From positions 1 to 64,000 of the IMG/VR virus record IMGVR_UViG_3300027141_000003: a stretch of DNA of 64,000 nucleotides; one strand, 5' to 3'. A program made the translations under genes and the position numbers. Below are positions 422 through 29,962 of the stretch, piece by piece. Origin of the DNA: a virus. The notes beneath the pieces are model-generated. The model saw only the letters and a list, made by a program, of their open reading frames with translations. It made no database searches and was not told the origin of the DNA. The stretch's first letter is position 1. Each line of letters starts with the position of its first letter.

Positions 422-543
422 ACTTAGACGAATTCAAAAAACACGTGTTAGAAACACGTCAGGCAAGCAAGGCGGAAGCCTTGTCAGTGCTATCTGCTAC
501 AATTACAACTTCAACAAACGAAAGGGAAAACCTAAATGGCTAA
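418..543 (+). CDS. Short protein whose 3' end contains a promoter
   Basis: This 41-residue frame starts by ATGA overlap with the gene before it. Its second half (ALSVLSATITTSTNERENLNG) is exactly the stretch of DNA that forms the TGTCAG/TACAAT promoter at 482-503 and the AACGAAAGG ribosome-binding site of the next gene. Either the gene was extended through the regulatory DNA or the C-terminus has no selected function. Unknown role. Confidence 0.5.
   Translation: MNLDEFKKHVLETRQASKAEALSVLSATITTSTNERENLNG
482..503 (+). promoter_or_regulatory. Early promoter 2, inside a gene's 3' end
   Basis: TGTCAG starts at 482 and TACAAT at 498, 16 bp apart as in the other copies. It lies wholly within the preceding coding frame and is followed by AACGAAAGGG before the ATG at 536. 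Confidence 0.7.
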
Positions 544-679
544 AATGAAACAACTACTTGATGAAATTATAAATTGCGATTTATGTAATGGTAAAGGCTG
601 GCAATTTTTTGGCAACGCTACTGAATACGATGTAGAGGCTTGCGAATGTAATCCTAATGAATTAGAGGTAAATTACTAA
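536..679 (+). CDS. Small putative zinc-binding protein
   Basis: This 47-residue frame has a CDLC pair near residue 14 and a CEC pair near residue 36, giving four cysteines that could bind one zinc ion. It follows an AACGAAAGGG ribosome-binding site and overlaps its neighbours at both ends. Zinc binding is inferred from cysteine spacing only. Confidence 0.6.
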   Translation: MAKMKQLLDEIINCDLCNGKGWQFFGNATEYDVEACECNPNELEVNY

Positions 680-807
680 TGAGCGAAATTGCTGGAATGT
701 GGATTTGCGATAATTGCGATACTCTCGCCATTGTGTCAGTGGAAACTGATACAATACTTGTAACACAATGTAAATGCGTAACTAACGAAAGGGAAACTAA
801 TGTATAA
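679..807 (+). CDS. Small putative zinc-binding protein with promoter in its 3' end
   Basis: This 42-residue frame starts by overlap with the preceding stop (TAATG). It has CDNC near residue 10 and CKC near residue 31, a second small four-cysteine protein next to the first. Codons from about residue 18 on are also the TGTCAG/TACAAT promoter and ribosome-binding site of the next gene. Function unknown. Confidence 0.55.
   Translation: MSEIAGMWICDNCDTLAIVSVETDTILVTQCKCVTNERETNV
734..755 (+). promoter_or_regulatory. Early promoter 3, inside a gene's 3' end
   Basis: TGTCAGTGG starts at 734 and TACAAT at 750, the usual 16-bp phase. AACGAAAGGG lies at about 784-793 in front of the ATG at 800. Confidence 0.7.
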
Positions 808-1003
808 AATAACTTGCGCCTATGATAGCAACGCTCCACACTGGTCTGCCGAATACGAAAACGAATTCGGTGCGTGGGAAAGTTTTTTCCGTTTTACCGA
901 TTGGGGAATGGCTAACGATTACTCAACTGTAAATATATCAACGCCAACTGGCAAAATGTATACAAAGGTTTTTTATCGTAGCGGAATGGTGGCAGTAAGA
1001 TGA
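800..1003 (+). CDS. Small protein, unknown
   Basis: This 67-residue aromatic-rich protein begins MYKITCAYDS. It starts behind AACGAAAGGG and overlaps the previous stop in another frame. Trp/Tyr content and the short length suggest a small beta fold; no family recognised. It overlaps the next gene as ATGA. Confidence 0.7.
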   Translation: MYKITCAYDSNAPHWSAEYENEFGAWESFFRFTDWGMANDYSTVNISTPTGKMYTKVFYRSGMVAVR

Positions 1004-1191
1004 TGACCCGTAAAGATTATGTTGCAACCGCAGAAATTCTAAAGTATGCAAGCAATAAAATTCACCCCGCTGTTTTTTCTAAAGTCGTAAATGATTTCGC
1101 TGAAATGTTTGCAATTGATAATGAAAGATTTGATGTAAAACGATTTCACGAAGCGAGTGGATATAATGTTCCTAACTTCACTTCAAGATAA
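1000..1191 (+). CDS. Small helical protein, unknown
   Basis: This 63-residue protein (MMTRKDYVATAEILKYASNK) is coupled to the preceding gene by an ATGA overlap. Its alternating charged and hydrophobic residues suggest two or three helices. The start could be either of the adjacent methionines. Function unknown. Confidence 0.7.
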   Translation: MMTRKDYVATAEILKYASNKIHPAVFSKVVNDFAEMFAIDNERFDVKRFHEASGYNVPNFTSR

Positions 1192-1297
1192 AGTAAAACG
1201 CATTCAGGAATTGCGTCGCAGTAATGCGGCGCAACCTGTTCGCAATAAAAAAAAATACACACGCAAAATAAAACATAAAAATAAATTTGATCAATAA
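1166..1297 (+). CDS. Short lysine/arginine-rich peptide
   Basis: This 43-residue frame overlaps the end of the previous gene by 26 nt in another frame. Its C-terminal half is strongly basic (KKKYTRKIKHKNK), as in nucleic-acid-binding tails. No clear ribosome-binding site is visible, so this is a weaker call. Confidence 0.4.
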   Translation: MFLTSLQDKVKRIQELRRSNAAQPVRNKKKYTRKIKHKNKFDQ

Positions 1298-1316
1298 AAT
1301 TAATTTGTCGACAAAG

Positions 1317-1375
1317 CCCGCAGAGCTACGGGGTCGGGCGTGTCGTTACGGGTGTGATCTAAAACACCCTGAAAT
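1317..1375 (+). repeat. Operon-boundary element, copy A
   Basis: CCCGCAG at 1317, GTTACGG starting at 1345 and CCCTGAAAT with GAAAT at 1371-1375. The spacings (28 and 26 bp) match the other copies exactly. GGGTGT and ACACCC inside it could pair. It sits between the end of the first operon and promoter 4. Confidence 0.75.
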
Positions 1376-1395
1376 CCTGCGTGTCAATTAGATAA

Positions 1396-1417
1396 TGTCG
1401 GTCCATTCTGTTATACT
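1396..1417 (+). promoter_or_regulatory. Early promoter 4
   Basis: TGTCGG starts at 1396 and TATACT at 1412 with TGT before it. An ATG within this promoter (1395) is in frame with the next gene but is not its start; AACGAAAGG precedes the better ATG at 1446. Confidence 0.75.
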
Positions 1418-1445
1418 TACAACCTTACCAACGAAAGGCCAACTA

Positions 1446-2165
1446 ATGAAATTGAAACGCTCTAATGATAGAAAGGTGGCTAACCTTGTCACAAAAAATG
1501 GAAAGCAAGCCGCAATTGCGAACACGTTCGGCCTACCTGCAGGAAAAGACTTTTCTTGTCCTGGTGCAACGTCTATCTGTGAGACTGTTTGCTACGCAGG
1601 CAAATTGGAAAAACTATATAAGGCAGTAAAGGCTAATCTTTTACACAACTGGGAATTGTTACGCAATGCAGACAATGACACAATGGTGCGCCTATTAGAT
1701 GAGATGATTGTTGATTTTGTTGCTGATTGTGATAAGAAGAATGCGCCTAAGTTATTCCGTATCCACTGGGACGGAGATTTCTTCAATGATACTTATACTT
1801 ATGCCTGGAAGACTGTTATCGAAAATCATTCCGATATTCAATTTTGGGTTTATACACGTGTAAAGTCTGCAGCGCTTATTCTAAAGGATGTATCTAATCT
1901 ATCTCTTTACTATTCCACCGACGATGAGAATAAAGAAATCGGTCACGAACTAAAAGTAAACGAAGGTATTCGCCTTGCTTACTTAGGCAAAACATTCGCC
2001 GTAACCGAAAGCACAATGAAAGAATTGACGGGCAAGCCTGGTGCAAAATGTCCTGAGAATATGAAATCAATTCCACTAATTAGCAATGCAGGTTCTGCTT
2101 GTGTATCTTGTGGCTTGTGTGTTTATGGTAAAGCAGACATTCGATTTAGCGCAACTAAAAAATAA
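1446..2165 (+). CDS. GP88-family phage protein
   Basis: This 239-residue protein resembles the actinophage 'gene product 88' family. Visible family features are the N-terminal cysteine cluster (CPGATSICETVCYAGK, about residues 36-51), the central RIHWDGDFF motif (about residue 107), YTR soon after, and a C-terminal CVSCGLC cluster. Many conserved cysteines suggest metal or iron-sulfur binding, but the biochemical role of the family is not known to me. I place the start at ATG 1446 behind AACGAAAGGCC; the upstream in-frame ATG lies in the promoter. A 40-residue gene follows in the same transcript. Confidence 0.8.
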   Translation: MKLKRSNDRKVANLVTKNGKQAAIANTFGLPAGKDFSCPGATSICETVCYAGKLEKLYKAVKANLLHNWELLRNADNDTMVRLLDEMIVDFVADCDKKNAPKLFRIHWDGDFFNDTYTYAWKTVIENHSDIQFWVYTRVKSAALILKDVSNLSLYYSTDDENKEIGHELKVNEGIRLAYLGKTFAVTESTMKELTGKPGAKCPENMKSIPLISNAGSACVSCGLCVYGKADIRFSATKK

Positions 2166-2177
2166 GGAGAAATAAAA

Positions 2178-2300
2178 ATGGCCGAATTAAAATATTTAAA
2201 TGCGTTGCTAGCATCTGTTGTTGGTACTCCTGATCAAGCAAAAGCTGCAAAAGAATATTTAGCAGAAGTAGATCCCGACATATGGGGCCAGGAGGAGTAA
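2178..2300 (+). CDS. Short protein, unknown
   Basis: This 40-residue frame starts 13 nt after the GP88 stop behind AAGGAG, a good ribosome-binding site. The composition is helical and acidic at the C-terminus (DIWGQEE). No family recognised. Confidence 0.6.
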   Translation: MAELKYLNALLASVVGTPDQAKAAKEYLAEVDPDIWGQEE

Positions 2301-2304
2301 AAGG

Positions 2305-2363
2305 CCCGCAGTACTGCGGGGTCGGGCGTGTCGTTAAGGATGTGATAATAATCACCCTGGAAT
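2305..2363 (+). repeat. Operon-boundary element, copy B
   Basis: CCCGCAGTACTGCGGG at 2305-2320 is a perfect 16-nt palindrome. The TTACG-equivalent block (GTTAAG) starts at 2333 and CCCTGGAAT ends at 2363, with the same 28 and 26 bp phases as copy A. GTGAT and ATCAC inside it can pair. It begins 4 nt after the upstream stop codon. Confidence 0.75.
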
Positions 2364-2383
2364 TTTGGGCGGGTTGCCTAAAA

Positions 2384-2405
2384 TGTCAGTAGGATGTGTT
2401 ATACT
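2384..2405 (+). promoter_or_regulatory. Early promoter 5
   Basis: TGTCAGTAG starts at 2384 and TATACT at 2400, preceded by TGT. CAACGAAAGG follows before the ATG at 2434. Confidence 0.75.
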
Positions 2406-2433
2406 TCCATTATCCAACAACGAAAGGCTACAA

Positions 2434-2658
2434 ATGTCTAATCAAATTAAAGTTCCACACTCCGTAGTATTCGAGGCCATTATTGACCTTGATAAAATAC
2501 CTGCTAACTTACTTCCTGCATTACTAAAACTAAATGAAACAGATTTACTTACTATGTGTAAGGAAGCAACACTACACGCTCTTACTCAATCTAATTTATT
2601 GCAAACCGCTAATGAGTTTAATACTTGGGCTGAAGTAACTATCAAGGAAGGGGAATAA
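2434..2658 (+). CDS. Small helical protein, unknown
   Basis: This 74-residue protein begins MSNQIKVPHS. The reading frame is open upstream, but that part is promoter DNA, so I use ATG 2434 behind AACGAAAGGC. The sequence is Leu-rich and likely all-helical. It is coupled to the next gene by a 2-nt gap. Confidence 0.7.
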   Translation: MSNQIKVPHSVVFEAIIDLDKIPANLLPALLKLNETDLLTMCKEATLHALTQSNLLQTANEFNTWAEVTIKEGE

Positions 2659-2660
2659 TA

Positions 2661-2930
2661 ATGGGAAGCATAACTGCATTAGGTATTCAAGATAGCGTGT
2701 TAGATTTAGAAACACAATTAGCCTATCACTTACAGGGTAATCATTACCCACCCGTTCCACTTTCTATGGTGCAACCTTGCATAGATGCTATTGACGCATA
2801 CTATGATGAGGATTTTGATCGACAGATAAAGATGCCTGAAGGCGTATCTTATAAAGGATTAGATACAGCACCTGCCTCCGCAATTATTGACCAACACCAC
2901 CTAGAGTTTTGGCTACCTGAGTGTGATTAG
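2661..2930 (+). CDS. Conserved-looking small protein, unknown
   Basis: This 89-residue acidic protein begins MGSITALGIQDSV. It starts 2 nt after the previous stop with AAGGAAGGGGA upstream. It contains paired aromatic and Pro residues (HYPPVPLSM) and ends with a HHLEFWLPECD tail. No enzyme motif seen. Confidence 0.7.
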   Translation: MGSITALGIQDSVLDLETQLAYHLQGNHYPPVPLSMVQPCIDAIDAYYDEDFDRQIKMPEGVSYKGLDTAPASAIIDQHHLEFWLPECD

Positions 2931-2974
2931 TATCACACAATAACTTTCTCAAATAATGAGATACGGATACTAAA

Positions 2975-2996
2975 TGTCGGTGGTATCCGCTATAAT
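2975..2996 (+). promoter_or_regulatory. Early promoter 6
   Basis: TGTCGGTGG starts at 2975 and TATAAT at 2991. AAACGAAAGGA precedes the ATG at 3026. Confidence 0.75.
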
Positions 2997-3025
2997 ACTA
3001 CTACCAACCAAACGAAAGGAAACAA

Positions 3026-3184
3026 ATGACAAACGCAACACTAGAGGTAGGCAAGTCCTACACAACCACTCAAAGTGGTATCACAGGAATAATCAAGTCG
3101 GTAGATACTCTGCCTAACGGCACAAGTCGTATCCTGCTTGATGTAGAAGGCAAGGAACGCTGGACAAGCGCAACTGCCAACTAA
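3026..3184 (+). CDS. Small protein, unknown
   Basis: This 52-residue protein (begins MTNATLEVGKSY, ends WTSATAN) is beta-rich with a G-rich middle and sits behind a strong AACGAAAGG site with its own promoter. It stands alone between a promoter and a structured non-coding stretch. It vaguely resembles the layout of the first gene of the window (short beta-rich). Function unknown. Confidence 0.65.
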   Translation: MTNATLEVGKSYTTTQSGITGIIKSVDTLPNGTSRILLDVEGKERWTSATAN

Positions 3185-3235
3185 GGAGGCACACACCACT
3201 AATCGGGTGCTAAGCCACGAAACAGGGACAGTTTT

Positions 3236-3286
3236 GAGAGTGTTCTAGTCCAATGTCGTAAGTAAGAACTCTCCACCTTCGGGTGG
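3236..3286 (+). ncRNA. Possible structured RNA: two consecutive hairpins
   Basis: GAGAGTGTTCT (3236-3246) can pair with AGAACTCTC (3265-3273) with a small bulge. Directly after it CCACC (3273-3277), a TTCG tetraloop and GGTGG (3282-3286) make a very stable hairpin. No T-run follows, so it is not a standard terminator; promoter 7 begins 4 nt later. Confidence 0.45.
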
Positions 3287-3289
3287 AAA

Positions 3290-3311
3290 TGTCAGACCCC
3301 CCTGCTATACT
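3290..3311 (+). promoter_or_regulatory. Early promoter 7
   Basis: TGTCAGACC starts at 3290 and TATACT at 3306, preceded by TGC (extended -10). CCAACGAAAGGT precedes the ATG at 3347. Confidence 0.75.
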
Positions 3312-3346
3312 ATCCATAACAACAACCAACGAAAGGTAATAAATAA

Positions 3347-3763
3347 ATGAGCAGACAAATCACAGTAAAGGTCGCAACGACCAAAGTAATCAAGGCACTA
3401 GAAACTCGTCTAGCAACGCTAGAAAAAGACTATGCTTCACAAGAAGCAAAAGAAGCAAAGTTTCAGAAATCAGTAGAAGCGTGGCGCAAGGAAATTGGTA
3501 AGTGGGCTATTGCCAACTTCTCAAAGGCTGAGAACCTTCGCACAAACTATCGTGCTTGGAACAACACTCTCAATGTTGATTTTGACATTATCACAAAGGA
3601 AGGCAACTTCCCTACTGAACCTCAAAAAGATTTTGAGCAAATCCATCAGCACAGTTATCGTGAGATGAAAGAGGACATTACAAATGCTCTCACAATTCTC
3701 AAAATGACAGATGAGGAATTAGTCAATGCTTCTACAATGAAGCAGATTGCTAAGTATCTCTAA
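3347..3763 (+). CDS. Coiled-coil protein, unknown
   Basis: This 138-residue protein has a long Lys/Glu/Ala-rich heptad-like helix in residues 10-55 (ALETRLATLEKDYASQEAKE) and a mixed C-terminal part. It has its own promoter and ribosome-binding site and no partner gene. It may be a small oligomeric early protein; no family recognised. Confidence 0.75.
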   Translation: MSRQITVKVATTKVIKALETRLATLEKDYASQEAKEAKFQKSVEAWRKEIGKWAIANFSKAENLRTNYRAWNNTLNVDFDIITKEGNFPTEPQKDFEQIHQHSYREMKEDITNALTILKMTDEELVNASTMKQIAKYL

Positions 3764-3766
3764 ATA

Positions 3767-3838
3767 GGTTTTGGGGGGTTAGCACACAAAGTCTAGACAC
3801 CTAAACCCAAACAACCTGAGTAAGTTGCCAAACTGCTC
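3767..3838 (+). ncRNA. Possible structured RNA: long imperfect hairpin plus a second stem
   Basis: The segment 3767-3782 can pair over most of its length with 3801-3816 (GGTT/AACC, TTGGG/CCCAA, TTAG/CTAA). A second hairpin uses 3817-3825 with 3831-3838. The region is 4 nt after a stop codon and ends 12 nt before promoter 8. Not a T-tailed terminator. Confidence 0.4.
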
Positions 3839-3850
3839 ACCCTTTGGGGC

Positions 3851-3880
3851 TAGACAAACTCTAACTCCAAATGCTATAAT
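3851..3880 (+). promoter_or_regulatory. Promoter 8, canonical form without TGTCAG box
   Basis: TAGACA at 3851-3856, an 18-bp spacer and TATAAT at 3875-3880 with TGC in front. It lacks the TGTCAG box, which suggests that TAGACA is the usual -35 here and that TGTCAG is an added regulatory site. ACAAAGGA follows before ATG 3908. Confidence 0.7.
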
Positions 3881-3907
3881 TAAAATCCCTACTAACAAAG
3901 GAACAAA

Positions 3908-4150
3908 ATGAAAAATCGTTATCGTGTAGAAATTTATGACGAAAACAAGTTAAATGATTTAACTATCTATTCTGAGCAAGGTGTCGATAAGGAATACTTA
4001 ACTGAATTAGTATTTTCTAATCTCCGCCGTTTTAACGGAACAATTCGTGCTTACGTTTATGATAATCTAAAGAAAAAGAAAATCACAGCGCTATTTTTAC
4101 CAGAAGAATTTATTCCCAAGAAAACAAACTTAACTAATCTAGTTGGCTAA
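3908..4150 (+). CDS. Small protein, unknown
   Basis: This 80-residue protein (MKNRYRVEIYDENKLNDL) is beta-rich at the N-terminus with a KKKK patch near residue 56. It sits alone behind its own promoter and is followed by a hairpin and boundary element C. Function unknown. Confidence 0.7.
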   Translation: MKNRYRVEIYDENKLNDLTIYSEQGVDKEYLTELVFSNLRRFNGTIRAYVYDNLKKKKITALFLPEEFIPKKTNLTNLVG

Positions 4151-4155
4151 AAAGT

Positions 4156-4180
4156 TGCAGCGATCTTCTCTTTCGCTGCA
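4156..4180 (+). terminator. Hairpin after the 80-residue gene
   Basis: TGCAGCGA (4156-4163) and TCGCTGCA (4173-4180) form a perfect 8-bp stem with a 9-nt loop, 5 nt after a stop codon. No T-run follows, so it may protect RNA ends rather than terminate. Confidence 0.45.
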
Positions 4181-4185
4181 GCTGG

Positions 4186-4244
4186 CCCGCAGAGCTGCGG
4201 GGTTATCCACAGGGTTACGAGAGTTATCCACAATCCCTGGAAAT
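4186..4244 (+). repeat. Operon-boundary element, copy C, with two DnaA-box-like sites
   Basis: CCCGCAG at 4186, GTTACGA block starting at 4214, GAAAT at 4240-4244, in the same 28/26 phase as the other copies. Two TTATCCACA sequences (4203-4211 and 4224-4232) lie inside it, identical to the standard DnaA box. Confidence 0.75.
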
Positions 4245-4292
4245 TTGTGATAATGATCACATCACCCAATTCGGACATATTGTATCTAATCC

Positions 4293-4321
4293 TAGACAAT
4301 GTCAGTGGCAGATGTTATACT
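4293..4321 (+). promoter_or_regulatory. Early promoter 9 with visible -35
   Basis: TAGACA at 4293-4298, a 17-bp spacer and TATACT at 4316-4321. TGTCAGTGG starts at 4300, so this box lies in the spacer between -35 and -10, the position expected for an operator. ATCGAAAGGA precedes ATG 4351. Confidence 0.8.
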
Positions 4322-4350
4322 GAATCTAACAACCAATCGAAAGGAATAAA

Positions 4351-5358
4351 ATGGCTCATAATCTAGAAATGGAAAACGGCGAAGTTGCTTTTGCTCTTCG
4401 TGGTGCTCCTGCTTGGCACAATCTAGCAAATCGCATCTTTACAAAAGATGAGGAAGTTACAACTAGTCTAATGCTTGAAGAGGCAAAATTGGCTAATTGG
4501 AATGTTCGCTTATCACCATTGACTGACCACATTTCAGAATCTTGGAATGATGTATCTCAGGCATCTCTCGTCATTCGTGACAACCCATTCAACAAGGGAA
4601 TCGATGTTCTCGCAACTGTCGGCAAGCGTTACAAGCCTGTTCAGAATGAAGAATTGTTTGCATTCGCTGATGCAATTCACGATGCCAATGCTGATTGCCG
4701 TTGGGAATCTGCTGGCTCACTAAAAAAGGGTAAAGTTGTTTTCGGAACTGTGGACATTCCCCGCACAATGGTTCTTGACCCACAAGGCGCTAACGATGAG
4801 ACAAAACTTTATCTTATCGTATGGACATCACACGATGGTTCTGTTGCTGTTCAAGCAGCCGTTACACCTGTTCGTGTAGTATGCCAAAACACGCTAAACC
4901 TTGCAATGAAGAATGCTAAGCAATCTTTCAAGATTCGCCACACGCAATCTGTTGAAGGTCGCATTCAAGTTGCTCGTGAAACTCTTGGGCTTGCTCTTGG
5001 ATACTTTGATGAATTCGAAGTTCAAGCAAAAGCGCTTTACTCACAAGCAATCACCGATGCTGAATTCTCTAAGTTGATTCAGACAATCTATCCTAAGCCA
5101 GATAAAGATGCAGCAAAAGTTGCTCTTACTAAGTGGGAGAATAAGGTTGTTCTAATTGATGACCTTTATCATAACTCACCAACTAACGCTACAATCAAGG
5201 GAACTAAGTGGGGTGCGTTCAATGCACTAACTGAGCGCCTTGATTATTATCGTTCAGGTCGTGGCAATTCTGAAACACTAATGGCTGGTGCTTCAGGCTT
5301 TGACCCAATTCTCACCGCAGAAAAAAATAAGTTGTATCGAATGGTTGCAACTTTCTAA
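4351..5358 (+). CDS. DUF932-like phage/plasmid protein
   Basis: This 335-residue protein begins MAHNLEMENGEVAFALRG and contains PAWHNL near residue 20, the typical N-terminus of the DUF932 (phage/plasmid-like TIGR03299) family. A central part with VVFGTVDIPR, then VWTSHDGSVAVQAAVTPVRVVCQNTL (split here as WTSHDGS and TPVRVVCQNTL), also fits that family. The family role is unknown, though members occur widely on phages and plasmids. It is the longest gene of the early block and has its own promoter. tRNA-Asp follows. Confidence 0.8.
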   Translation: MAHNLEMENGEVAFALRGAPAWHNLANRIFTKDEEVTTSLMLEEAKLANWNVRLSPLTDHISESWNDVSQASLVIRDNPFNKGIDVLATVGKRYKPVQNEELFAFADAIHDANADCRWESAGSLKKGKVVFGTVDIPRTMVLDPQGANDETKLYLIVWTSHDGSVAVQAAVTPVRVVCQNTLNLAMKNAKQSFKIRHTQSVEGRIQVARETLGLALGYFDEFEVQAKALYSQAITDAEFSKLIQTIYPKPDKDAAKVALTKWENKVVLIDDLYHNSPTNATIKGTKWGAFNALTERLDYYRSGRGNSETLMAGASGFDPILTAEKNKLYRMVATF

Positions 5359-5397
5359 ATAATAAAAATCCTAGGCACGATTTAAAACTGCCCGCAA

Positions 5398-5471
5398 GAT
5401 CTCTTAGCTCAGTTGGTTAGAGCGCTACCCTGTCACGGTAGAGGTCACGGGTTCAAGTCCCGTAGGGGTCG
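5398..5471 (+). tRNA. tRNA-Asp (anticodon GTC)
   Basis: A complete cloverleaf is visible: acceptor 5398-5404 with 5464-5470 (several G-U pairs), D-stem GCTC/GAGC, anticodon stem CTACC/GGTAG around the loop CTGTCAC, T-stem ACGGG/CCCGT. The anticodon GTC reads Asp codons. CCA is not encoded. Confidence 0.93.
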
Positions 5472-5490
5472 CATCTCAAGATATGAGACG

Positions 5491-5549
5491 CCCGCAGACC
5501 TGAAGGCCAAATGTCCGTTTTACGGCTTTTATAAAAAAACCCCTGAAAG
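5491..5549 (+). repeat. Operon-boundary element, copy D
   Basis: CCCGCAG at 5491, GGCC at 5505, TTTACGG at 5519 and CCCTGAAAG with GAAAG at 5545-5549. All spacings equal those of the other copies (28, 14 and 26 bp). It starts 20 nt after the tRNA. Confidence 0.75.
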
Positions 5550-5559
5550 CTATTGTATA

Positions 5560-5581
5560 TGTCAGTGGGGCCTGGTACAAT
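5560..5581 (+). promoter_or_regulatory. Early promoter 10, probably leaderless
   Basis: TGTCAGTGG starts at 5560 and TACAAT at 5576. The first good ATG (5589) is only 7 nt after the -10 box and no ribosome-binding site fits between, so the mRNA would start at or next to the ATG. Confidence 0.65.
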
Positions 5582-5588
5582 TCTCTTT

Positions 5589-6254
5589 ATGACCAACGAA
5601 CTAGTATCAACTAAATATACATTTGCCTGTGACCCAGACGAATGCGATGTACTAATAGAACTAACATCATCTGACGGATTCGGATTCCCGTCGGGTGTGA
5701 CTGAAATCACTTGTCCGTGTGGCCGTAAGCCAGTCTTATTGTCAGTGGTCAATGCTACAATTGCTTCAACAACCCAAACGAAAGAGGAAAAAATGGAAGA
5801 GACAACAACACCTGCAGTAACAGTTCCTGATACATATAACCCTAATCTATTGGTAACTTACAAAGTTATCCGTGGTTACTCAGATGCTGAATATGCAACT
5901 GACAAGGTCACATCAATTGAATGGGACCTACACAATGCACGTCAAGCACAGAAGCACAATAGTGTTTACCAAGGCAAGATTGACACAGTCAAAGATATTA
6001 TCACTGAAGCATATGCTGATTCAGATGACCAAGAAACACTTCGTGCAATTGCTGAAGCGCTTTCAATTGAACTAATCAGAGAATTTGAATTTACCGCATC
6101 TATCGAGGTTAGCGGAACATATTCATATAACATTCTTGAAAATGATTATGACTTAGACCTTGAGTCAGAAGTTACAGATGCCCTCTTTGCTGATTCACAG
6201 AACGGTAACATTGAAATTACCGACCAAGAAGTATGCAACGTTAGTGAGCGCTAA
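5589..6254 (+). CDS. Cys-containing N-terminal extension fused in frame to an acidic protein
   Basis: From ATG 5589 the frame encodes 221 residues. The first 68 contain CDPDECD and a CPCG pair, like a small zinc ribbon. The rest is the acidic 153-residue protein that can also start on its own at 5793. Residues of the join (LLSVVNATIASTTQTKEEK) are encoded by the second promoter and ribosome-binding site. This could be a true fusion or two nested products with a shared stop. Confidence 0.55.
   Translation: MTNELVSTKYTFACDPDECDVLIELTSSDGFGFPSGVTEITCPCGRKPVLLSVVNATIASTTQTKEEKMEETTTPAVTVPDTYNPNLLVTYKVIRGYSDAEYATDKVTSIEWDLHNARQAQKHNSVYQGKIDTVKDIITEAYADSDDQETLRAIAEALSIELIREFEFTASIEVSGTYSYNILENDYDLDLESEVTDALFADSQNGNIEITDQEVCNVSER
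5740..5761 (+). promoter_or_regulatory. Early promoter 11, inside a coding frame
   Basis: TGTCAGTGG starts at 5740 and TACAAT at 5756. AAACGAAAGAGG follows and leads to ATG 5793, which is in frame with the surrounding reading frame. Confidence 0.7.
5793..6254 (+). CDS. Acidic phage protein, likely main product from internal start
   Basis: This 153-residue protein begins MEETTTPAVTV behind ACGAAAGAGG with its own promoter, so independent translation is well supported. It is acidic, with a Tyr-rich middle and long predicted helices. No family recognised. Its stop overlaps the next start (TAATG), beginning a five-gene coupled run to 7209. Confidence 0.7.
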   Translation: MEETTTPAVTVPDTYNPNLLVTYKVIRGYSDAEYATDKVTSIEWDLHNARQAQKHNSVYQGKIDTVKDIITEAYADSDDQETLRAIAEALSIELIREFEFTASIEVSGTYSYNILENDYDLDLESEVTDALFADSQNGNIEITDQEVCNVSER

Positions 6255-6466
6255 TGTACTTTGAGTTGACTGCTCCCGATAGGCTATCTATGGAGATGGC
6301 TTATTGGGATGCACAAATGATTGGGCTGGACCCAACTGCATTATCACCGTTGACATTCAACATCGGAACTGGTAGTATTGAGAAGGTGAGTCGCATTCGT
6401 GATAAGTATAACTTAATTGAAAGTTATACATCAGACTACGAGCCAACAGGATACACAAGGAGATAA
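6254..6466 (+). CDS. Small protein, unknown
   Basis: This 70-residue protein begins MYFELTAPDRLSME. Its start overlaps the previous stop (TAATG), so translation is coupled. No recognisable motif; a short N-terminal strand then a helix are likely. Confidence 0.7.
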   Translation: MYFELTAPDRLSMEMAYWDAQMIGLDPTALSPLTFNIGTGSIEKVSRIRDKYNLIESYTSDYEPTGYTRR

Positions 6467-6467
6467 G

Positions 6468-6614
6468 ATGTCAGATTACAAAGATGGTTTTGATGACGGG
6501 TATAAATTTGCTCGTGAAGAGATTATGGAAAAGTTATCAGAGATTGATATCGCAGACATAGACTCTTGGATCTTAGACCGTCTTTCAGAAATGATCGAAG
6601 GTGGGAAACTATGA
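6468..6614 (+). CDS. Small acidic helical protein, unknown
   Basis: This 48-residue protein begins MSDYKDGFDDGYKFAREE. I choose ATG 6468 behind AAGGAGATAAG rather than the in-frame ATG at 6417, which lies inside the previous gene. The repeated DG-Y/F pattern is common in small actinophage proteins of unknown role. Confidence 0.7.
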   Translation: MSDYKDGFDDGYKFAREEIMEKLSEIDIADIDSWILDRLSEMIEGGKL

Positions 6615-6805
6615 TGGCTGAATGGCTTAAGTGTGATCAATGTGCAGCTCAGGCTATGTGGGAAGCTAAAAAGGATACAGCATCCCTTTATTTCTGTGGC
6701 CACCACAAAAATAAACAGGGCGAGCCACTTGTGGACTGGGCCCAAGAAATGATACAATTGCTTAACTACGAGCAAGAACAACAACTAGAAAAGGCGGAAA
6801 AGTAA
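6611..6805 (+). CDS. Small putative zinc-binding protein
   Basis: This 64-residue protein begins MMAEWLKCDQCAAQAMWE and has CDQC at residues 8-11 and CGHH at 29-32, a possible Cys/His zinc site. The start overlaps the previous stop (ATGA). The C-terminus is a helix rich in Glu and Gln. Confidence 0.7.
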   Translation: MMAEWLKCDQCAAQAMWEAKKDTASLYFCGHHKNKQGEPLVDWAQEMIQLLNYEQEQQLEKAEK

Positions 6806-7209
6806 TGGGAGATAGAGCAAACTTCGTATTCGTGCAGCCAAACGGTCAATCGATTGTTTTGTACGGACACTGGGCTGGACATCAAATGCTACAACGTTTA
6901 GCAGAATCAGCAGTTAAGGCACAGGGCCGTTGGTCGGACCCTTCATATGCAACACGCATTACAATCAGCAATATGATTGGCGAAGGCTGGGCAATGGAGA
7001 CAGGCTGGGGATTATCTGTAAATGAAATTGCAGACAACGAGCACAAGATTCCTGTAATTGATTTTCAGCAACAGACATTTAGTCTTCACGAAGAGGCGCC
7101 GTATTCAGATGAATCTAATAAGATTCGTGGGATGAAGAATGAGGCAATCTTTACACAGGACCTAAGTAACTTCTGTGAGAAGTACTCAGACCAATTGGTT
7201 CGAGTATAA
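6805..7209 (+). CDS. Conserved-looking phage protein, unknown
   Basis: This 134-residue protein begins MGDRANFVFVQPNG and has YGHWAGH near residue 25. The N-terminal pattern (GDRANF, then a short strand pair and YxHW) recurs in many actinophage hypothetical proteins as far as I recall; function unknown. It ends the operon just before a structured RNA. Confidence 0.75.
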   Translation: MGDRANFVFVQPNGQSIVLYGHWAGHQMLQRLAESAVKAQGRWSDPSYATRITISNMIGEGWAMETGWGLSVNEIADNEHKIPVIDFQQQTFSLHEEAPYSDESNKIRGMKNEAIFTQDLSNFCEKYSDQLVRV

Positions 7210-7224
7210 CTAATTAATCTAAAG

Positions 7225-7343
7225 GTGCCTCTATAGTCTTCGCAGGCCAGGGGTTAACTAAAGCATCGGATTTTACTTTCGTTGGTTACCGATAGCAGCC
7301 TTAGTAAAGAACCCTGGATCATTAACGTGTCCAGGGCTTTTTG
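7225..7343 (+). ncRNA. Candidate structured RNA with a switch-like terminator
   Basis: After the operon stop at 7209 the sequence can fold in layers: CCAGGGGTT (7247-7255) with AACCCTGG (7310-7317); ACTAA (7257-7261) with TTAGT (7301-7305); ATCGG (7265-7269) with CCGAT (7289-7293). TTTACT in the inner loop (7272-7277) can also pair with AGTAAA (7303-7308), a possible pseudoknot. AACCCTGG can instead serve the terminator stem at 7312-7336, so two folds exclude each other. This looks like an attenuator or a free small RNA. No known Rfam class is recognised. Confidence 0.6.
7312..7343 (+). terminator. Intrinsic terminator
   Basis: CCCTGGA (7312-7318) pairs with TCCAGGG (7330-7336), followed by CTTTTTG. 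A 7-bp GC-rich stem plus T-run is a standard factor-independent terminator. Confidence 0.8.
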
Positions 7344-7346
7344 CTG

Positions 7347-7406
7347 CCCGCAACAGCTGAGGGGAATAAAGTCTATTTACGGATAACATATATAAATCCT
7401 GGAAAT
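7347..7406 (+). repeat. Operon-boundary element, copy E
   Basis: CCCGCA at 7347, GGGA at 7362, TTTACGG at 7376 and TCCTGGAAAT with GAAAT at 7402-7406. The 14- and 26-bp phases match; the first spacing is one base longer. It begins 3 nt after the terminator T-run. Confidence 0.7.
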
Positions 7407-7470
7407 TGGACATATTGGACATATATCTATCTGATCATAGCTTTTGTGGTGTGAATCACACGATATTGCA

Positions 7471-7500
7471 TAGACAAATGTCAGTGGTCCATTATATAAT
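7471..7500 (+). promoter_or_regulatory. Early promoter 12 with visible -35
   Basis: TAGACA at 7471-7476, TGTCAGTGG from 7479 and TATAAT at 7495-7500. As in promoter 9, the TGTCAG box lies in the spacer. TCAACGAAAGGA precedes ATG 7528. Confidence 0.8.
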
Positions 7501-7527
7501 TAGAACCTATCAACGAAAGGATATAAA

Positions 7528-8319
7528 ATGCCAAATTGGTGTTACAACACATTAACTATCCAAGGACCTAAGTCTGAGGTAGATATGATTAAAGATAGAT
7601 TGAATGCTCCATTTACATTAGCACAAGAGACATATGGTATGGGTGATATTAGTCTTTCAGGATTCCCCACCAAAATTGAACAGGTAAGTTATTCTAATCC
7701 TGTCTTTGCTTTCTTTAATATCCACTCATATAAAGATGAGGGAATTACTGATGAGGAATATGCCTGCCAGCCTTCTCGTGGTAACTATGATATACAAAAT
7801 GACCCTGATTGGTTCCGCAAGTCTGTTGAGTTCGCTAAGACTCAGAAGGATTGGTATTCTTGGAATAATTCTAATTGGGGAACTAAATGGGATGTAGCCG
7901 TCCGTGACGGTGATGAATATCCTGAAACAGAATTGCTTGAATATAAATCAGAAGGTGATGACAACTGGGTTATCTATAAGTATGAGACTGCTTGGTCACC
8001 TGCTGTAACTATCTTAACTAAACTATCTAATCTTGTTCCTAACTGCCTGCTTACTTTAGAGTTTGAGGAAGAGACAGGTTGGGGTGGGGAATATGAGATT
8101 GTTCGTGGTGAAGTAAAAGAACTAGTTGAATATGAAAATCGTTGTAATGAATGTGATTCATATGACACATTGTCTTATTGTGAGAATGACTGCGGTGAAT
8201 TCTGTTCTGAATGCGAGCACGGCTCTTGGAGAGACGAAGAGGCTATGAAAGAATGTCAGACCCATATGCTAACATTACCTATTAAGACCTACACACAGGA
8301 AGAGGCACTAAATGGCTAG
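7528..8319 (+). CDS. DUF1281/YubB-like protein with C-terminal Cys-rich region
   Basis: This 263-residue protein begins MPNWCYNTLTIQGPKSEV, the characteristic start of the DUF1281 (YubB ferredoxin-like) family found on phages and plasmids. Aromatic motifs such as SWNNSNWGTKWD (about residue 111) and the EEETGWGGEYEI stretch also fit that family. Beyond it lies a Cys-rich tail (CNECDSYDTLSYCENDCGEFCSEC), a likely zinc-binding module. Role unknown. It opens a coupled operon of at least five genes. Confidence 0.75.
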   Translation: MPNWCYNTLTIQGPKSEVDMIKDRLNAPFTLAQETYGMGDISLSGFPTKIEQVSYSNPVFAFFNIHSYKDEGITDEEYACQPSRGNYDIQNDPDWFRKSVEFAKTQKDWYSWNNSNWGTKWDVAVRDGDEYPETELLEYKSEGDDNWVIYKYETAWSPAVTILTKLSNLVPNCLLTLEFEEETGWGGEYEIVRGEVKELVEYENRCNECDSYDTLSYCENDCGEFCSECEHGSWRDEEAMKECQTHMLTLPIKTYTQEEALNG

Positions 8320-8536
8320 TTTCTTAGAAGATGTAAATCAAATGGTAATTGACGCTTGCTATCAAGATATAGCAGAACAATTACTTGAAGATTGGATTAA
8401 TAATAATCTTGACGAAGGGCAATATTATGCAGATAAGCAATTTGCTGAAATGTCAGGAGATAAGTTTGTTCAATCTGAATTTAATAAGTTCTATGAACTT
8501 AAAGAGGGAGATGAGGGTTACATTGACATACTATAA
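8312..8536 (+). CDS. Small acidic helical protein, unknown
   Basis: This 74-residue protein overlaps the previous gene by 8 nt and starts behind GAAGAGG. It is acidic and likely all-helical (DVNQMVIDACYQDIAEQLLE). No family recognised. Confidence 0.7.
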   Translation: MASFLEDVNQMVIDACYQDIAEQLLEDWINNNLDEGQYYADKQFAEMSGDKFVQSEFNKFYELKEGDEGYIDIL

Positions 8537-8693
8537 CTTTGTAATTAGATTACACGGTGCAGTTGGCGCTAATAGCGAACAAGAAGCAATTGAGAAAATC
8601 AATGGACACTTAGATGACCTAGGTGATGTTGAAAGTATTATTAAGTATGACTTAGGTTGGCCTGAGACATCTTGGGAATTGGAGGAAGCATAA
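8511..8693 (+). CDS. Small protein, unknown
   Basis: This 60-residue protein begins MRVTLTYYNFVIRLHGAVGA. The frame is open further upstream, but that part overlaps the previous gene; ATG 8511 behind AGAGGGAG is the sensible start. It has an N-terminal strand followed by EQEAIEKINGHL, like small domains that read as strand-helix. Unknown. Confidence 0.65.
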   Translation: MRVTLTYYNFVIRLHGAVGANSEQEAIEKINGHLDDLGDVESIIKYDLGWPETSWELEEA

Positions 8694-8875
8694 TGTTAGG
8701 ATATACGGAATCTGATCTAAATAGGATGATTAATGCTATACACGATTCAAAGCTTTTTTATCTTAGGACCCCGTCAGATTTAATGGACAAGGAGCCTTTG
8801 AGGAAAGACTTGGAAGACGCTGTTAGTTTCTTGCAAGGTTTGTGGGCGGAGGGTTACTTTGACTACACAAACTAA
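8693..8875 (+). CDS. Small helical protein, unknown
   Basis: This 60-residue protein begins MLGYTESDLNRMINAIHDSK. The ATG at 8693 overlaps the previous stop as TAATG and follows GGAGGA, which decides against the earlier in-frame ATG. It is likely a small helical bundle. Unknown. Confidence 0.7.
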   Translation: MLGYTESDLNRMINAIHDSKLFYLRTPSDLMDKEPLRKDLEDAVSFLQGLWAEGYFDYTN

Positions 8876-9044
8876 ATCTAGTAAGTTCATAGAGTATATG
8901 AAGATACATCTAATTAGTCTTAACCAGGACTTAGAGGGTGATTATAATGTTCAATCTAAGATTAATATCCAGGGACAAATTATGGCAACCGAACATTTAT
9001 TGTCAGTGGCGACTGATATAATGAATGAAAACGAAAGGGTCTAA
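8859..9044 (+). CDS. Small helical protein starting with TTG; promoter in its 3' end
   Basis: This 61-residue protein starts at TTG 8859, 6 nt after a strong GGAGG site, and overlaps the previous gene. It is helical with an amphipathic middle. The last 14 codons (LSVATDIMNENERV) are also promoter 13 and the ribosome-binding site of the next gene. Function unknown. Confidence 0.6.
   Translation: MTTQTKSSKFIEYMKIHLISLNQDLEGDYNVQSKINIQGQIMATEHLLSVATDIMNENERV
9001..9022 (+). promoter_or_regulatory. Early promoter 13, inside a gene's 3' end
   Basis: TGTCAGTGG starts at 9001 and TATAAT at 9017. AAACGAAAGGG follows and leads to ATG 9046. Confidence 0.72.
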
Positions 9045-29875: not shown

Positions 29876-29888
29876 ATTGCCTCCCCTG

Positions 29889-29962
29889 TGCAACAAGTAG
29901 GACTTGAACCTACGATTACCGAATTATGAGTTCGGGGCTTTAACCAACTAAGCTATTGTTGC
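29889..29962 (-). tRNA. tRNA-Met (anticodon CAT)
   Basis: On the minus strand the cloverleaf is complete: acceptor GCAACAA/TTGTTGC, D-stem GCTT/AAGC, anticodon stem CCGAA/TTCGG around CTCATAA, T-stem GTAGG/CCTAC. Anticodon CAT reads Met; the gene could alternatively be tRNA-Ile2 if C34 is modified to lysidine. No CCA is encoded. Confidence 0.92.

Follow-up and report, generated by a model that had tools for sequence, protein, structure and literature searches.

Several RNAs encoded by phages are known to act on phage messages by base-pairing. In the C4 antisense RNA of P1/P7 and the sar RNA of P22, loops base-pair where ribosomes bind on a phage mRNA, whose translation is thereby blocked, and lambda OOP and aQ also act on phage mRNAs by base-pairing (PMC12197685). 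For the phage sRNAs VpdS and PreS, action on several mRNAs, or on mRNAs of the host, has been proposed or shown; where the same review treats phage sRNAs with targets in the phage, these are directed at a single phage gene or at genes of the host (PMC12197685). Here, we describe a locus at positions 7225-7343 of a stretch of 64,000 nt, the window, which is part of a virus record of 109,912 bases. The phage is a freshwater relative of the Stanwilliamsviridae Streptomyces phages; its terminase is 62% identical to the Francob and Gilson terminases. The locus sits between a small gene at 6805-7209 (phrog_31860, to which phrog assigns no function) and a gene with a DUF1281_C domain at 7528-8319, and positions 7217-7343 encode a predicted structured RNA of about 125 nt.

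Like C4 and sar, this is a phage-encoded structured RNA with a loop complementary to a phage ribosome-binding region, here the AACGAAAGG leaders; unlike them, with their single phage target ant, it has one loop that matches about nine early leaders sharing the same tag. OOP and aQ are described as antisense to a single gene each (cII and Q), whereas the RNA found here would act in trans, with a short loop, and at many places. Descriptions of VpdS and PreS mention Hfq, and their targets belong to the host or are mixed, whereas our RNA folds into a conserved three-way junction and is predicted to target early leaders of the phage itself. Among bacterial RNAs, staphylococcal RNAIII is a multi-target sRNA that directs C-rich loops against Shine-Dalgarno sequences. 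The phage RNA resembles RNAIII in its exposed pyrimidine loop complementary to the ribosome sites of many mRNAs and differs in being encoded by a phage; the likeness comes from description, and no sequence or structural kinship was seen. No description of this RNA was found in the literature covered, that is, outside subscription papers.

Fold, conservation and transcription signals

The MFE fold of the full putative transcript (7217-7345) was a three-way junction followed by a separate terminator hairpin, and shorter folded segments agreed in part with this junction. The features of the locus are listed below.

7205-7210, +: TATAAC, the likely -10 box of the small RNA gene, read from the sequence; it overlaps the stop codon of the upstream gene
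7222-7302, +: three-way-junction RNA core, from models R1/R2, covariation in the 91-sequence alignment and the MFE fold of 7217-7345
7222-7226, +: 5' strand of P0, AAGGU, which pairs with GCCUU at 7298-7302 in the fold
7227-7254, +: P1 hairpin, GCCUCU (7227-7232) with AGGGGU (7249-7254), showing two-sided compensatory changes
7236-7239 and 7244-7247, +: P1b, apical in P1, GUCU with AGGC, showing two-sided compensatory changes
7255-7262, +: junction strand UAACUAAA, 8 nt, consensus UAARUAAR, unpaired and nearly invariant in the alignments
7263-7296, +: P2 hairpin, GCAUCGG (7263-7269) with CCGAU-A-GC (7289-7296), a covarying helix
7270-7288, +: large loop within the P2 hairpin
7276-7286, +: antisense loop CUUUCGUUGGU, complementary to ACCAACGAAAG, from leaders, enrichment, co-variation and duplex ranking
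7312-7343, +: intrinsic-terminator-like hairpin CCCTGGAT...GTCCAGGG plus T tract, from the sequence and a script match

Homologues were collected from viral contigs as intergenic stretches beside homologues of both neighbouring genes, and nearly every such stretch held a conserved RNA of about 60-84 nt. In a 19-sequence alignment, from which the tested structure was itself written, 98.8% of the pairs were standard and covariation was 0.405, as compared to 0.133 when shuffled and at most 0.159 when slid. With the covariance model built from this alignment, 71 matches were obtained in 77 sources, and no source had more than one. With 91 sequences, 98.8% of the pair cells were standard, 11 of the 17 pairs had two-sided changes, and covariation was 0.395, as compared to 0.110 ± 0.007 after shuffling (0/500) and a maximum of 0.087 after sliding; alignments A1 and A2, which misplaced short P1 hairpins or the loop, were left out of the pair counts. 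The compensatory changes that the initial annotation had proposed to seek by covariance search in viral contigs were found, and conservation was not confined to the terminator: the junction was conserved and the terminator sequence varied. The reality of the RNA rests on this covariation, folding energy alone being weak evidence (z-scores of -2.2 with the terminator, -1.4 for 7240-7320 and -0.4 for 7218-7304). The covariance-model match in the window spans 7224-7300 with 69.5 bits (R1), a score that is partly given by construction, the window sequence being one of the seeds, which does not apply to the covariation. In homologues, an extension of P0 into the flanks was stronger for own than for swapped flanks (-7.74 vs -3.13 kcal/mol, p ~4e-27, relatedness not corrected); it was weak in the window itself (-2.7 kcal/mol).

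A different, nested arrangement of stems had been annotated initially. All its letters lie where they had been placed (CCAGGGGTT at 7247-7255 and AACCCTGG at 7310-7317, ACTAA at 7257-7261 and TTAGT at 7301-7305, ATCGG at 7265-7269 and CCGAT at 7289-7293), and ATCGG/CCGAT proved to be a real covarying helix, P2; the long outer stem was not conserved.

The three-way junction with P0, P1, P1b, P2 and the UAARUAAR strand is a new conserved phage RNA family, and the window RNA has these covarying helices together with the strand. It adds a family missing from Rfam, where no match was found at the gathering threshold in the window, at E up to 10 in 7100-7550, or in 13 homologous loci, in keeping with the earlier impression that it belongs to no recognised RNA class. 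The C4 antisense RNA of Rfam likewise gave no match at the gathering cut-off (window, 7100-7550 and 13 homologous loci). The weak Rfam matches ohsC and NsiR1 were rejected, both being below the gathering score and mainly on the terminator hairpin. ARAGORN and Rfam placed no tRNA or tRNA-like gene at the RNA site; the tRNA genes of the window are tRNA-Asp(GTC) at 5398-5472 (+) and tRNA-Met(CAT) at 29888-29962 (-).

The predicted RNA is conserved in hundreds of phages of actinobacteria. An exact pattern search found it in at least 120 viral contigs, and a model search found the same junction in the cultured Streptomyces phages Gilson, Phredrick and Samisti12, where it is intergenic and near a DUF932 gene. 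A wider model recovered it in Samisti12, Phredrick and Faust with E values of 2e-5 to 9e-5, these three sequences being already in the alignment of that model, and the independent find is that of the Gilson, Phredrick and Samisti12 search only. Nucleotide BLAST of the window RNA against phages gave nothing relevant, and the Streptomyces copies were found later by the covariance model; BLAST with the Gilson and Samisti12 copies then retrieved 25 and 83 phage records, that is, 108 of Stanwilliamsviridae type, nearly all unannotated at this place. In these copies, P0, P1, P1b and the junction strand are all retained, compensatory changes included, and the P2 loop is GUCGG. With the fold in an intergenic region of more than 100 sequenced Streptomyces phages, many of which were isolated on laboratory strains, its expression and function are directly testable. 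Unannotated GUCGG-loop copies lie at NC_042012.1:779-835 and 123823-123879 (-) and at NC_048742.1:107949-108005 (+), and the Boydwoodruffvirinae have a conserved ACCUUUCAAU after P0. Neither R1 nor R2 matched Weasels2 (Rhodococcus) or Mandalore (Coruscantvirus). As a candidate host or prophage copy, the single GTDB pattern match (L221) was rejected; it had no GGUGC/P1 part and was judged by eye to be a chance match.

From the TATAAT/C box present within 90 nt upstream in 69 of 77 homologues, we infer that the RNA is transcribed separately. In 27 of those 69, GTC(A/G) precedes the box by 10-12 nt, and a strong -35 is absent for the RNA of the window. The terminator-like hairpin with its T tract at 7312-7343, already noted in the initial annotation, is present, and its loop is longer than 8, which is why a strict terminator scan misses it. 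A terminator-like hairpin lies within 100 nt after the RNA in 65 of 78 homologues, the other 13 having no recognisable one, and the terminator sequences are unrelated between homologues. Together with the covarying fold, these hairpins support the earlier suggestion of a stable small RNA with its own terminator. Along 480-9040, most early genes are preceded by a promoter-like TGTCAGTGG, with a TATAAT-like box a few bases on; the spacing of about 11 from GTCA to TATAAT in these elements is unlike that of an ordinary sigma-70 -35/-10 pair.

Loop complementarity to early leaders

The most telling feature of the RNA, which the initial annotation missed, is that its loop is antisense to the phage's own early leaders. 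The freshwater phages have CUUUCGUU in the P2 loop; it is the antisense of AACGAAAGG, and the latter is the ribosome-binding leader of about nine early genes in the window. The window contains 8 copies of AACGAAAGG where 0.35 would be expected, every one of them on the + strand and within 517-9038; each is just ahead of a start codon, most after the promoter-like TGTCAGTGG...TATAAT, and the rest of the genome outside the window holds one ACGAAAGG more. When duplexes were ranked over the whole genome, the early leaders were among the top sites, along with some intragenic off-targets of similar strength. The predicted targets, with their duplex energies, are the following.

517-525, +: leader AACGAAAGG of the gene starting at 536, -12.3 kcal/mol
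784-792, +: leader of the gene starting at 800, -19.9 kcal/mol
1430-1438, +: leader of the GP88-family gene (PF17338) starting near 1446, -16.9 kcal/mol
2419-2427, +: leader of the next gene, -13.0 kcal/mol
3011-3019, +: leader of the gene starting at 3026, -14.3 kcal/mol
3328-3336, +: leader of the gene starting at 3347, -18.4 kcal/mol
4338-4345, +: leader of the DUF932 gene at 4351-5358, CGAAAGGA variant, -14.3 kcal/mol
5592-5600, +: first codons of a leaderless-looking gene, ATGACCAACGAA, -16.8 kcal/mol
7512-7520, +: leader of the downstream DUF1281_C gene at 7528-8319, -14.3 kcal/mol
9030-9038, +: weaker target, leader of the next gene, -9.9 kcal/mol

Short complementarity to several separately encoded mRNAs at their ribosome sites, as expected of a trans-acting base-pairing sRNA, was thus found for the window RNA. 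The early gene within 5585-6254 has its start codon about 10 bases after a TACAAT box, hence its leaderless look, and its first codons, ATGACCAACGAA, match the loop.

The same relation was observed among relatives. In the records of 24 of them, AACGAAAGG occurs 3-14 times on one strand except in G004, where there are 2 copies, and the reversed control occurs 0-4 times. Across 78 loci (815 kb), 410 9-mers antisense to the own loop were counted, against 62 and 78 in controls, and 380 of these 410 sites (93%) lie no more than 14 nt 5' of a start codon. The loops vary at their edges between genomes. GGAA follows the CGAAA core in 154 of 268 leaders of genomes with a UUCC loop, as compared to 35 of 203 in genomes with a UUAC or UUUC loop, and own loop/leader energies beat permuted ones (double-centred -0.546 vs a permutation sd of 0.160, p = 0.0003), statistics of co-variation in which phylogeny was not corrected. 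Moreover, a leaderless-looking early gene starts with ATGACCAACGAA in most CGUUGG-loop genomes, and in two contigs the loop CGUUUGAC pairs up with the gene start ATGTCAAACGAA.

Loss of the loop was observed twice, each a single event. In a clade of four (L050, 7259-7317; L059, 7107-7166; L064, 4138-4196; and L246), the junction is kept and the P2 loop is almost gone. The one near-complete genome of this clade, G004, has 14 GAAAGG-N-ATG on the early strand, as many as loop-bearing relatives, and only 2 AACGAAAGG, which is background. In L045, the antisense loop is gone from the junction RNA, yet AACGAAAGG leaders persist; at L045:7360-7394 there is another perfect hairpin of 11 bp, whose 13-nt loop UUCCCUUUCGUUG is exactly antisense to the leader CAACGAAAGGGAA of the same contig, and the sequence of this hairpin was found in no other viral contig. 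As a side observation, P1b of the loop-less clade carries a new loop, GAUUGUCU.

No such relation was found in Streptomyces phages: their GUCGG loop had no target that we could find, and in Samisti12 the P2 loop, the P1b loop and the 3' flank, each taken as leader antisense, showed no enrichment at start sites. The early region of Samisti12 (L222:9604, 10111, 13763 and 14326) has a recurrent leader, ACAUCGAAAGGG, ahead of early genes, with a small hairpin of the GGGAG...CUCCC type after it.

Proposed function and alternative readings

The RNA is probably a trans-acting antisense sRNA of the phage, about 125 nt long, that pairs with early leaders and lowers their translation. The three-way junction would present the large loop CUUUCGUUGGU, and this would pair with the extended ribosome-binding leader (ACC)AACGAAAGG, common to most early transcription units. 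Such pairing would cover or abut the Shine-Dalgarno sequence, and translation of the whole early set would fall at once. The sRNA probably acts as a feedback or timing brake, since many homologues have their own promoter-like box inside the early block. The fold is conserved, with one copy per genome, and the enrichment of the leaders, their position and their co-variation with the loop were directly observed; from these sequence comparisons, we infer pairing in the cell and repression as its outcome. The ribosome site could account for part of the complementarity, because the core of the leader, GAAAGG, is a Shine-Dalgarno sequence in its own right and a CGAAAGG leader is also found in Streptomyces phages whose RNA lacks this antisense loop. 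In addition, the junction must be of use for something other than the antisense loop, because it also occurs in Streptomyces phages, where it bears another loop and no targets of that loop were found.

A broader proposal, to which we give even chances, is that of a master antisense RNA. One junction chassis would be shared by the Stanwilliamsviridae and their freshwater relatives, with the loop exchanged between lineages; the freshwater loop would pair with a common tag on nearly all early operons, and one RNA would time the entire early programme. If true, this would make the RNA a post-transcriptional counterpart of a phage repressor, addressing an entire early regulon by way of a leader tag that its members share.

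All the evidence for pairing is neutral as to its sign, and the same antisense pairing might activate or protect early mRNAs, e.g., against nuclease. Some loops, of the UUAC and UUUC types, leave part of the Shine-Dalgarno GG unpaired, as this would allow; but the leaders are short, with no obvious inhibitory hairpin to relieve, and pairing overlaps the ribosome site, which by inference only speaks against activation, and we regard this outcome as unlikely. There is also a small chance that the junction binds a protein or the ribosome, with the CUUUCGUU loop as an anti-Shine-Dalgarno mimic or decoy and not a regulator of chosen mRNAs. Conservation of the UAARUAAR strand exceeds that of the loop, and the strand is still present in the Streptomyces phages and in the loop-less clade, which speaks for such binding. 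However, the complementarity is not limited to the Shine-Dalgarno core but extends to AAC, and it changes together with the letters of the leader; in the loop-less G004 AACGAAAGG is down to background while the GAAAGG sites stay. These observations speak against a mimic or decoy.

Very unlikely is the cis-acting attenuator or riboswitch of the initial annotation, with the RNA as leader of the 7528 gene toggling from a fold like that of an aptamer to the terminator and back: early arrest of transcription would leave the right arm AACCCTGG able to pair with CCAGGGGTT, and the frequent terminator-like hairpin after the RNA would suit it, but this long stem appeared only when folding ended before the right arm of the terminator, the stretch over which the left arm of the terminator can pair with the RNA's 5' half was no longer, and the match no better, in own than in swapped pairs, the pseudoknot TTTACT/AGTAAA was kept in 1 of 78 homologues, no conserved mutually exclusive terminator/antiterminator was seen across these 78, the junction stays while terminators are unrelated in sequence or missing, a promoter-like TAGACA-18-TATAAT at 7471-7500 separates the RNA from the 7528 gene, and many distant genes have leaders to which the loop is complementary.

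Between the RNA and the 7528 gene, a non-coding block at 7346-7465 is conserved among the freshwater relatives. It contains GCCCGCAA...GAGGG..., TTTACG, and, near the promoter, the palindrome GTGTGAATCACAC, which is perhaps an operator.
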